NCBI GenBank assembly: GCA_035703895.1
Contig: DASSXJ010000137.1
Coordinates: forward strand, 1-43,332
Direction of reading: 5' to 3'
Source of the DNA: a bacterium
GTDB taxonomy: Bacteria; Sysuimicrobiota; Sysuimicrobiia; Sysuimicrobiales; Segetimicrobiaceae
DNA length: 43,332 bases
Shown: piece after piece, positions 40,148-43,332 of the stretch
Position numbering within the stretch: position 1 is the first letter of the stretch
How the letters are laid out: the number at the start of each line of letters is the position of its first letter
Translations under genes and position numbers: made by a program
The notes under the pieces: generated by a model
The model's database searches: none
What the model was told of the DNA's origin: nothing
Seen by the model: the letters and a program-made list of their open reading frames with translations, nothing else

Positions 40148-41110
40148 TCACAGTCTCAACTCCCATCGCTGTGTGACCAGGTCATGGCCGAAACGGTGAC
40201 GGGGTTCCTCGCGGACGAGGCGGAAGCCTGCTCGTTCGTAGACGCGTTGGGCGGCGCGAAGCGCGCTGTACGTGCACGCCGTGATCTTCCGGTAACGCGC
40301 CTGCCGGGCGAAGCGCATGGCCTCGCTCGCCAGGCGCGCGCCGATGCCCATCGTACGGGCCTTCGGCTCGACGAACAGCAGGCGGAGTTGGGCCACCGTC
40401 TTCGACTGATGGACGAGGAACACGGAGCCGGCCACCTCGCCGTCTTTTTCGGCGATCCAGCAGCGCTCCCGCTTCGGGTCGAAGGTCTGGATGAATTTCG
40501 CGACGACGCCCGCCACCAGCGCCTCGAACTGTTCGTCCCATCCGTGCTCGAGCGCGTACACCACACCGTGGCGGTGGACGATCCACCCCATGTCGCCCGG
40601 CTGGGGGGGCCGGAGGAGGTAGGGGGTCTTGGGTTCGGGTCGTGCACCGAGCAGCCCCTCGATCGTCTGCATCGCCTCGACCAAACGGATCTGCTCGACC
40701 GGGAACAGGTCGCGCAGCATCGCGCCGATCTCGTCGCGTGAGCGGGCGTTGAGCGGGGCGAAAGCCTCCCGTCCTTGCGCCGTCAGCGACAAGAGGCTCT
40801 GGCGACCATCGGTGTCCGAGGGCGATTTCTCGATCAGGCCGCGCTTCTCAAAGCCCTGCAGCATGCGGCTCAGATAGCCCGGATCCAAGGCCAGCTCCTT
40901 GCTGAGTTCGGCTGCGGTGGGCCGCATGCGATGCGCCAGCTCATAGAGGACGCGCACCTGGGCCAGGGGAAACGGGCTCCCCAAGAACCCTTCGTGCAGC
41001 ACGCCTATCTTGCGGGTGTAAAATCGATTGAAGCGCCGCACGGCGGCGACGCGCTGATCGAAACTCCCTTCGGCCTCCGCGTTCACGTCATCCAGGTCCG
41101 GATGGTCCAC
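40148..41110 (-). CDS. MarR-family regulator fused to GNAT acetyltransferase
   Basis: A 320-residue two-domain protein. Residues about 15-155 form a MarR winged helix (FNRFYTRKIGVLHEG, TAAELSKELALDPGYLSRMLQGFEKRGLIEKSPSDTDGRQSLLSLTAQG). Residues about 165-320 form a GNAT acetyltransferase, with the acetyl-CoA loop in VEPKARTMGIGARLASEAMRF and a GVVYALEHGWDEQFEALVAGVVAKFI segment common to this fusion. GTG 41110 is the first sensible start and overlaps the previous gene by 23 bases; the exact start is uncertain. It likely represses or activates promoters nearby, and the palindromes at 42542-42575 are candidates for its operator. Confidence 0.88.
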   Translation of the reverse strand: MDHPDLDDVNAEAEGSFDQRVAAVRRFNRFYTRKIGVLHEGFLGSPFPLAQVRVLYELAHRMRPTAAELSKELALDPGYLSRMLQGFEKRGLIEKSPSDTDGRQSLLSLTAQGREAFAPLNARSRDEIGAMLRDLFPVEQIRLVEAMQTIEGLLGARPEPKTPYLLRPPQPGDMGWIVHRHGVVYALEHGWDEQFEALVAGVVAKFIQTFDPKRERCWIAEKDGEVAGSVFLVHQSKTVAQLRLLFVEPKARTMGIGARLASEAMRFARQARYRKITACTYSALRAAQRVYERAGFRLVREEPRHRFGHDLVTQRWELRL

Positions 41111-41426
41111 CGCCGCCCGCGTCGTCCTTGACGACCAGCGTGTAGTGCCGGACGCGGCGGTCGAACTGAGTGAGCAGCGCAGCGGCTTCATCGGCGACGA
41201 CGGCATCCTCAGCGTCGGCTCCGGCAAACCCGTGGATGGCCTCGAGCGACCGCCACCAGGTAATGACGAGGACTTCGATCGCACCGGCGACCTCTCGCTC
41301 TAGGAGCATGGCACCGCTGTACCCGGGCACCTTCCTCACGGCCGGCAGGACGTGGGTCTTCAGATGATCAACGTAGGCGGGGGCCAATGCGGGTGTCGTG
41401 TGCGCCGACCAGACGCGGGCGATCAT
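41088..41426 (-). CDS. Dimeric alpha/beta-barrel (ABM-like) small protein
   Basis: A 112-residue protein with the ferredoxin-like pattern of antibiotic-biosynthesis-monooxygenase/Dabb proteins: MIARVWSAHTTPALAPAYVDHLKTHVLPAVRKVPGYSGAMLLERE, then VLVITWWRSLEAIHGFAGAD and a terminal RHYTLVV. The ATG overlaps the YciI-like stop as ATGA, so it is translationally coupled. Its end overlaps the MarR-GNAT start. Members include heme-degrading and quinol monooxygenases and many without catalytic role; no cofactor site is evident here. Confidence 0.8.
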   Translation of the reverse strand: MIARVWSAHTTPALAPAYVDHLKTHVLPAVRKVPGYSGAMLLEREVAGAIEVLVITWWRSLEAIHGFAGADAEDAVVADEAAALLTQFDRRVRHYTLVVKDDAGGGGPSGPG

Positions 41427-41737
41427 CGTCCGGCGCCCGCCGGAGGTGCGTCGGAGGGTTCGTTCCCGACGACGACGGACCAAGGCCGGACTTCCCACCG
41501 GGTGACCAGACGGCTGGACACGTACGGATCGTTCCGAACGAAGCGTTCGACGACCGAGCGATCGGAGGCGCGAAAGACCAGCAAGGCCCGATCCGCCGGA
41601 TCATTCAGCGCGCCCGCCAGCAACAGCTCCCCACGACGATGCGCGTCCCTGGCGAGGCGCAGATGTTCATCGCGATACGGGACCCTGCGGGACACAAAGT
41701 CGTCGACCACGTCGTAGAAGAGCGCGTAGTACTGCAT
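41423..41737 (-). CDS. YciI-like protein
   Basis: A 104-residue protein of the YciI/YCII family (small dimeric ferredoxin-like fold). Matching segments are YYALFYDVVDDFVSRRVPYRDEHLRLARDAHRRGELLLAGALNDPADRALLVFRASDRSVVERFVRNDPYV. A histidine (His25) and an aspartate (Asp70 region, NDPYV) sit where the family has its putative active site. GAGGTG lies before the ATG. It lies 23 bases after the AlaX gene and overlaps the ABM-like gene. The biochemical role is unknown for most members. Confidence 0.85.
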   Translation of the reverse strand: MQYYALFYDVVDDFVSRRVPYRDEHLRLARDAHRRGELLLAGALNDPADRALLVFRASDRSVVERFVRNDPYVSSRLVTRWEVRPWSVVVGNEPSDAPPAGAGR

Positions 41738-41760: not shown

Positions 41761-42480
41761 TCAGCCGTCCGCCTGCCGGCCGAGCTTGATCTCCAGCCGG
41801 CGGTTCGCCTTTCCCTTGTTCTCGGTTTTCACGATCCTCAGCCCCTCGATCTCGCCCGCGCGCGAGACGTGCGTCCCGCCGTCGGCCTGAGCATCGTAGC
41901 CCTCGATCTCGATGACCCGGATCTGCTCCACGTCCCTCGGCACGAGGTCCCTGGCCAGCCGGACGAGGTCCGACCGCTCGAACTCTTCCCGCGAGACGAA
42001 CCGAACCAGGATGCGCCGATCCTCGACGATGACGCGATTGGTCTCCTGTTCGATCGCGGCGATGCGCTCTTTGTTGAGATCCTCCAGCGAGAAGTCCATA
42101 CGGGCACGATCGAGATAGATCGCCCCGCCCGTCACGCGGGCTCCGAAGAGCCGGTAGACCGTCCCGACCAGAATGTGCAGCGCAGAATGATAGCGCATGA
42201 TCGCATACCGTCGGTCCCAGTCCAGCACCGCGCGCACGCGTGTTCCCGCCGTTGGAGCGGGGCCATCCAGCACATGCCACACGGCCTCGCCGTCCCGCCG
42301 CATCTCGACCACCCGCCGCTCCTCTCCCGGCCAGCGCAGCGAGCCGGTATCGGCGGGCTGGCCGCCTCCGCCCGGATAGAAGATCGTGCGGTCGAGGACG
42401 ACGGCGCTGTCCTCCACCGCGGCGACGGAGGCGTCGACTTCTCTCAGGTAGCTGTCCTGCAGGTAGAGCAGCTCCGTCAT
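41761..42480 (-). CDS. alaX: Alanyl-tRNA editing protein AlaX
   Basis: A 239-residue free-standing editing domain that hydrolyses Ser-tRNA(Ala) or Gly-tRNA(Ala). The N-terminal beta-barrel contains FYPGGGGQPADTGSL. The editing core has His98-x3-His102 (RYHSALHIL) and QADGGTHVSRAGEI, where His204 is the third ligand. The cysteine usually preceding GGTH is Asp200 here; I believe some AlaX proteins share this, but it should be checked. It is the first gene of the leftward operon with YciI-like, ABM-like and MarR-GNAT genes, and diverges from the CoA ligase gene. Confidence 0.9.
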   Translation of the reverse strand: MTELLYLQDSYLREVDASVAAVEDSAVVLDRTIFYPGGGGQPADTGSLRWPGEERRVVEMRRDGEAVWHVLDGPAPTAGTRVRAVLDWDRRYAIMRYHSALHILVGTVYRLFGARVTGGAIYLDRARMDFSLEDLNKERIAAIEQETNRVIVEDRRILVRFVSREEFERSDLVRLARDLVPRDVEQIRVIEIEGYDAQADGGTHVSRAGEIEGLRIVKTENKGKANRRLEIKLGRQADG

Positions 42481-42541
42481 CCGGGCCTCCTCGCCGGCGC
42501 CGCCGCGCGTACCCGCTCGCGGCGGGACCCCGACGCTTTCA

Positions 42542-42552
42542 TGACATTGTCA
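42542..42552. promoter_or_regulatory. Palindrome 1 of candidate tandem operator
   Basis: TGACATTGTCA, a perfect dyad with 5-base arms about one central base (centre 42547), 62 bases upstream of the AlaX start. It repeats the TGACA/TGTCA core of palindrome 2. Confidence 0.5.
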
Positions 42553-42561
42553 CGCATCTAG

Positions 42562-42575
42562 TTGACAATTGTCAA
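42562..42575. promoter_or_regulatory. Palindrome 2 of candidate tandem operator (MarR-box-like)
   Basis: TTGACAATTGTCAA, a perfect 14-base dyad centred at 42568.5, 21.5 bases from the centre of palindrome 1, i.e. two helical turns. Palindromes of this TTG...CAA type are typical MarR-family operators, and a MarR-GNAT gene is in the flanking leftward operon. Each arm also contains a consensus -35 hexamer (TTGACA), on the plus and minus strands, so binding would overlap promoters. Confidence 0.6.
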
Positions 42576-42617: not shown

Positions 42618-42623
42618 TATAAT
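42618..42623 (+). promoter_or_regulatory. Consensus -10 box before a leaderless start
   Basis: TATAAT ends 7 bases before ATG 42631, so transcription would begin at or next to that ATG. A second in-frame ATG at 42622 overlaps the hexamer and is unlikely to be the start if this promoter is used. No good -35 is found 16-18 bases upstream. Confidence 0.5.
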
Positions 42624-42630
42624 GGCGTCG

Positions 42631-43332
42631 ATGGAGCTGGTCCACTTTGCCCGCAGGCCGTTCGAGACGCTCCACGCGACCTTTCGCTGGCGGATTCCCG
42701 CCGTGTACAACATCGGCGTCGACGTCTGTGACAAATGGGCGAGGGATCCCGGGCGCGTGGCATTGTTGGACGTCACCGCGGAAGACCCCGCGCCGTACAC
42801 GTTTGCGGAACTGGCGCGGAGGTCCAACCGGTGGGCGAACGCGCTGCGGGCCTCAGGCATCGGACGCGGGGACCGGGTGGCCATTGTGCTGTCGCAGCGG
42901 CCAGAGGTGCCCCTAGCCCACATCGCGACCTACAAGCTGGGGGCCGTCGCTGTGCCCCTCGCGGTGCTGTTCGGCGACGATGCGCTCGAGTTCCGGTTGC
43001 GGGACAGCGGCGCGCGGGCGGTCGTGTTCGACGGCCTGACCGCCCCCAAGCTCGACCGGATCCGGGACCGGCTGCCCAATCTGCAGCATCTCATCGCCGT
43101 CGACGAGACCGCGCGCGGCGTACCGGGAGCCCACGGGGCGGCTCTGCTCGAGGAGCGCGCCAGCGAAGACTTTGCGCCGGCCGAGACGCGTCCCGACGAT
43201 CCCGCGCTGATCATGTACACGTCCGGGACCACGGGTCCCCCCAAGGGCGCCGTGCTTCCCCACTCGGCCCTCATCGGGCACCTGCCCGCGTTCGTCCTCT
43301 TCAACAACCTCGCTCCCCGCGCGGGGGATCGG
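42631..43332 (+). CDS. AMP-dependent acyl-CoA synthetase/ligase, partial at window end
   Basis: The first 234 residues of an ANL-superfamily ligase, continuing past the window. The start MELVHFARRPFETLHATFRWRIPAVYNIGVDVCDKWA is like acetyl-/propionyl- or medium-chain acyl-CoA synthetases. The ATP-binding P-loop YTSGTTGPPKGAVLPHSAL appears at about residue 195. It activates a carboxylic acid to acyl-AMP and then to acyl-CoA. Start ATG 42631 is chosen from the -10 box position, with ATG 42622 as the alternative. It is divergent from the AlaX operon and probably controlled from the same operator region. The 3' part is not available, so the acid specificity is unknown. Confidence 0.9.
   Translation, partial: MELVHFARRPFETLHATFRWRIPAVYNIGVDVCDKWARDPGRVALLDVTAEDPAPYTFAELARRSNRWANALRASGIGRGDRVAIVLSQRPEVPLAHIATYKLGAVAVPLAVLFGDDALEFRLRDSGARAVVFDGLTAPKLDRIRDRLPNLQHLIAVDETARGVPGAHGAALLEERASEDFAPAETRPDDPALIMYTSGTTGPPKGAVLPHSALIGHLPAFVLFNNLAPRAGDR

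Follow-up and report, generated by a model that had tools for sequence, protein, structure and literature searches.

Tandem palindromes as a probable autoregulatory operator of MarR-GNAT fusion regulators in many bacterial phyla

Comparison of upstream regions indicates that two tandem palindromes in front of an operon encoding an AlaX-type protein and a MarR-GNAT fusion are a real DNA switch, conserved across many bacterial phyla. The GNAT-fused regulator very probably represses its own operon through these palindromes. They lie in the window, the whole stretch of 43,332 nucleotides that was analysed, between the operon and a divergent CoA ligase gene, and they overlap the predicted promoter of the operon.

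The palindromes, the operon and its predicted promoter

The first gene of the operon encodes an AlaX-type alanyl-tRNA editing protein (41761-42480, minus strand; Pfam and NCBIfam, with AlaXM as the closest model, below cut-off). It is followed on the same strand by genes for a YCII/YciI-like protein (41423-41737; Pfam and NCBIfam), an ABM (antibiotic biosynthesis monooxygenase fold) protein (41088-41426), which is barely above the Pfam cut-off and is kept in syntenic operons, and the MarR-GNAT fusion (40148-41086), which is the proposed regulator. A metallo-beta-lactamase-fold gene follows the fusion gene, and an AMP-binding CoA ligase gene (42631-43332, plus strand; Pfam), truncated by the contig end, is divergent from the operon. 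The MarR part of the fusion (approximately residues 1-145) contains a winged-helix domain (PF12802, 4.5e-11; PF01047, 1.2e-10) and the GNAT part (approximately 157-312; PF00583, 1.8e-15) contains acetyl-CoA motif A (Q/R-x-x-G-x-G/A), with R244, G247 and G249 found to be invariant in 24 homologues. The predicted GNAT fold resembles phosphinothricin and spermidine acetyltransferases in a fold search, a general GNAT likeness that did not point to a substrate.

Site 1 is the perfect 14-bp palindrome TTGACAATTGTCAA (42562-42575, minus strand, centre 42568.5) and site 2 is the 13-mer GTGACAATGTCAT on the AlaX strand (42541-42553, minus strand), with the core TGACATTGTCA at 42542-42552 and its centre at 42547. 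The earlier note had placed TGACATTGTCA and TTGACAATTGTCAA correctly to the base, with centres 21.5 bp apart, and its distances of 62-95 bases to the AlaX ATG (42480) and 56-89 bases to the ligase ATG (42631) were also right. When up to three mismatches are allowed, TTGACAATTGTCAA has one match within the window against 0.25 expected. A whole-genome pattern search found TTGACANNTGTCAA as a single copy in the 4.38 Mb genome at zero or one mismatch; at two mismatches the matches are as numerous as those for a reversed control pattern, so that only the exact copy is informative. Site 1 takes the form of a 13-mer, TTGAC-N3-GTCAA, across the family, where the sites are 21 bp apart, and the window, G008 and G010 carry one additional central base in this site.

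The predicted promoter of the operon (42546-42575, minus strand) scores 10/12, with a -35 box TTGACA at 42575-42570, a spacer of 18 bp and a -10 box GACAAT at 42551-42546; these assignments are consensus matches from a promoter scan of the window, in which the shuffles gave a mean of 0.0 promoter-like sites. The same arrangement was observed in relatives, with a 17-bp spacer. The left arm of site 1 on the AlaX strand coincides with the -35 box and site 2 overlaps the -10 box, and therefore two bound dimers would be expected to block RNA polymerase, an arrangement that suits a repressor. In about nine loci, for example L099, L105, L109, L113 and L117, the start codon is located 6-8 bp past the -10 box, as would be expected for leaderless mRNAs. 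The AlaX start in G009 and G011 (L036 and L037) is located about 35 bp from the start of site 1, a distance that is consistent with a leaderless AlaX transcript.

Conservation of the sites with MarR genes

The earlier note proposed a search for the motif upstream of MarR-GNAT operons in related genomes, and this is where it was found. We sampled 80 MarR-GNAT genes from GTDB genomes (54-73% identical), 79 of them with enough upstream DNA, from about ten phyla by record title (Pseudomonadota, Methylomirabilota, Rokubacteria, Gemmatimonadota, Myxococcota, Cyanobacteriota, Acidobacteriota, Chloroflexota, Bacillota and Verrucomicrobiota). The exact 10-base palindrome TTGACNNNGTCAA occurs within 150 bp upstream of 48 of the 79 genes, compared with none of 3,005 control windows taken from these loci and none of 1,580 shuffled versions of the upstream regions. 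When at least nine of the ten bases are required to match, the site is present in 69 of the 79 upstream regions against 8/3,005 control windows and 2/1,580 shuffles. L102 lacks the site.

Alignment gave a profile of approximately aTA-n-TTGAC-wnA-G(T/G)CAA-c-TAwwT-nn-TTGAC-naT-G(G/T)CA, in which the TA steps that flank site 1 symmetrically are also conserved. The second site is weaker, is usually located 21 bp downstream of the first and is degenerate at many loci. In this site a T replaces the A of site 1, and this T ends the -10 box, which is separated by 17 bp from TTGAC(A).

Homologues on plasmids that are 45-54% identical and lie outside all of our models also have 13-mer palindromes upstream. 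Both arms were observed to be altered together in several of these homologues, with TTGCC..GGCAA in Cupriavidus and Paracoccus and TTGTC..GACAA in Phyllobacterium, which points to recognition by a dimer and suggests switches of binding specificity. Changes in both arms were seen at L207, L211 and L212, where the palindromes lie no more than 150 bp ahead of the match that begins at 1501. The sites of two divergent homologues are 25 bp apart, so that the 21-bp spacing is a strong preference rather than a rule and placement on the same face of the DNA is not universal.

These patterns bear on whether a strong sigma-70 promoter alone might be conserved, with the palindromes being coincidental. TTGACA and GACAAT do match -35 and -10 boxes, but conservation is also strong in the right arm GTCAA and in the flanking TA steps, neither of which sigma-70 requires, and both arms change symmetrically in the divergent homologues. 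We consider a promoter without an operator to be extremely improbable.

In the close relatives, AlaX, YCII, ABM and MarR genes are found together in G006 and G008-G011, and all of these AlaX operons have a TTGAC-N3/4-G(T/G)CAA palindrome upstream. The MarR-GNAT gene is separate from AlaX in G002, G005 and G007, and an EamA exporter gene follows it in G002 and G005. The tandem pair is located upstream of the stand-alone genes in G002 (TTGACAAAGTCAActaactagTTAACAATGTCAA) and G005, with a degenerate form in G007. Among AlaX orthologues, the operator is present in all six cases beside a MarR gene and in none of the 16 without a MarR neighbour (P ~1e-5, Fisher). The MarR protein of G006, G009, G010 and G011 has no GNAT part, and these GNAT-less orthologues retain both the operator and the predicted recognition-helix sequence D/N-P-G-Y-L-S-R. 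The operator therefore goes with the MarR half of the protein. A comparison within one genus, of G010 (L070:11092-11592) with G008 (L068:7255-8442), showed the same AlaX operon with a GNAT part in G008 only; it appears to have been cleanly lost in G010.

Specificity within genomes and the divergent CoA ligase

We searched whole genomes with an independent profile built from 36 operators of other families, with no member of the source genome's family. The site in the window was found to be the only match in its genome (E=0.011), and the profile matches seven of the nine MarR-carrying genomes of the source family. Besides the source genome, these are G002, G005, G006, G009 and G011, and, with a weak match, G010 (E=0.26). 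This profile missed G007 and G008, whose sites can nevertheless be seen by eye. G001, G003 and G004, together with eight genomes of other families, gave no match to the profile; full-length MarR-GNAT is absent from G001, G003 and G004, of which G003 and G004 are incomplete assemblies. A family-inclusive profile, whose training set includes G000, G002, G005 and G010, gave a match at the MarR locus in every one of the nine MarR-carrying genomes.

Of 13 distant genomes, 12 have their best operator match at the MarR-GNAT gene, and other matches have E=0.06 or worse; many of these genomes supplied sequences to the model, and the independent part of this result is the absence of other sites. When a wider regulon was sought in the 12 relatives and the 13 distant genomes, the sole notable extra was the own site of a Mesorhizobium paralogue (E=0.06). 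This paralogue (G068, C6; L193:1501-2136) is a second MarR protein of the family that has no GNAT part, carries TTGACTTGGTCAA upstream and was found by the operator search alone. The near absence of further sites indicates control that is probably local to the regulator's own operon.

It might be argued that a different regulator owns the palindromes and happens to control MarR-GNAT operons, as MarR is linked to the site by sequence comparison. However, the site tracks the MarR gene through varied operons, gene partners and phyla, and it is not found where that gene is lacking. It is also usually the sole confident match in a genome, which counts against a separate regulator because such a regulator would have other targets. 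This alternative is therefore judged to be highly improbable. Autoregulation by MarR(-GNAT), as proposed in the earlier note, has strong support: operator and MarR gene go together over about ten phyla, the presence of the operator separates AlaX operons that have a MarR gene from those that lack one, and the only match of the independent profile in the source genome is the operator in the window.

The same two dimers might also repress a promoter that drives the divergent CoA ligase from the opposite strand. A weaker promoter-like match reads toward the ligase from within the operator (42541-42569, plus strand), with ATGACA at 42541-42546, 17 bp and GACAAT at 42564-42569 (9/12, a consensus match only), and the ligase ATG is just 56 bp away; it is this geometry that makes co-regulation of the ligase possible in the source genome. 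On the other hand, tandem palindromes give such a reverse match almost automatically, and TATAAT at 42618-42623 is an alternative candidate for the ligase -10 box, though without a -35 box. The motif is absent upstream of the ligase orthologues (68-81% identical) in G001, G004, G009 and G011, and the ligase does not adjoin the AlaX operon in those relatives whose flanks were read. Repression in both directions thus seems unlikely, and the CoA ligase is probably a bystander. The TATAAT is a perfect match right before the ligase start codon, with no recognisable -35 box, and could be a leaderless ligase promoter. The proposal that MarR-GNAT controls the ligase accordingly gained no comparative support. 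The idea that the regulator senses acyl-CoA or acetyl-CoA from the ligase is also unsupported; the operator is retained with MarR orthologues that have no GNAT part.

Regulatory model and possible function

Binding by the regulator, the stoichiometry of two dimers, repression rather than activation and the role of a ligand are what we infer from these comparisons. It is highly likely that the palindromes are the autoregulatory operator of MarR-GNAT. One MarR dimer would cover the -35 box and a second, roughly two helical turns away on the same DNA face, would cover the -10 box, so that RNA polymerase would be kept from the promoter of the AlaX-YCII-ABM-MarR-GNAT operon. The dimers would then be released by a ligand, which may be a small amine or a compound that resembles an amino acid.

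Classical MarR autorepressors such as MarR/marO, OhrR and MexR are winged-helix proteins that bind short palindromes over their own -35/-10 region, sometimes in two copies. The present system is similar in having a winged-helix MarR protein and short palindromes across the -35 and -10 boxes of the operon that encodes it. It differs in its fusion to GNAT and in its putative operator, TTGAC-N3/4-GTCAA, present twice and 21 bp apart. The best reading appears to be that the MarR-GNAT fusion represses its own operon locally, a type of control that is already known. In Pseudomonas aeruginosa, PA3458 is a MarR protein encoded beside a GNAT-containing operon; the divergent region holds a site that is palindromic in part, and the protein has the consensus TTTCAGTTGGAAGCA, more than 300 binding sites and an osmoprotectant regulon (PMC8070244). 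PA3458 therefore shares the GNAT-gene operon neighbour and the palindromic divergent site, but its MarR is not fused to GNAT (PMC8070244).

Full-length homologues with the same domain order (45-54% identical) are named in NCBI as 'bifunctional helix-turn-helix transcriptional regulator/GNAT family N-acetyltransferase' or 'helix-turn-helix domain-containing GNAT family N-acetyltransferase' (for example WP_151125575.1 and WP_011750750.1), names that are domain-based. We found no report of a MarR-GNAT operator or ligand in the open-access literature.

The neighbouring genes give some indication of function. At about 20 of 63 dereplicated MarR-GNAT loci the following gene belongs to one BLAST cluster, and EamA exporters make up 8 of the 10 scanned genes that follow MarR-GNAT. 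Together with the resemblance of the GNAT fold to small-amine and amino-acid-analogue acetyltransferases in general, the EamA neighbours make it a reasonable guess that MarR-GNAT handles an amine or amino-acid-like compound. A more speculative idea, which we regard as unlikely, is a one-protein sense-and-detoxify switch: MarR would repress, a toxic amine or amino-acid analogue would release it, GNAT would acetylate the compound, and the partner proteins would export it (EamA) or clear mischarged tRNA (AlaX).

A widespread and apparently unstudied regulator family thus gains a precise predicted DNA target, against which binding assays and ligand screens can be run directly and from which targets can be predicted and tested. 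The two functions of the protein also appear to be separable, as the operator belongs with the MarR half and the GNAT half can be lost.
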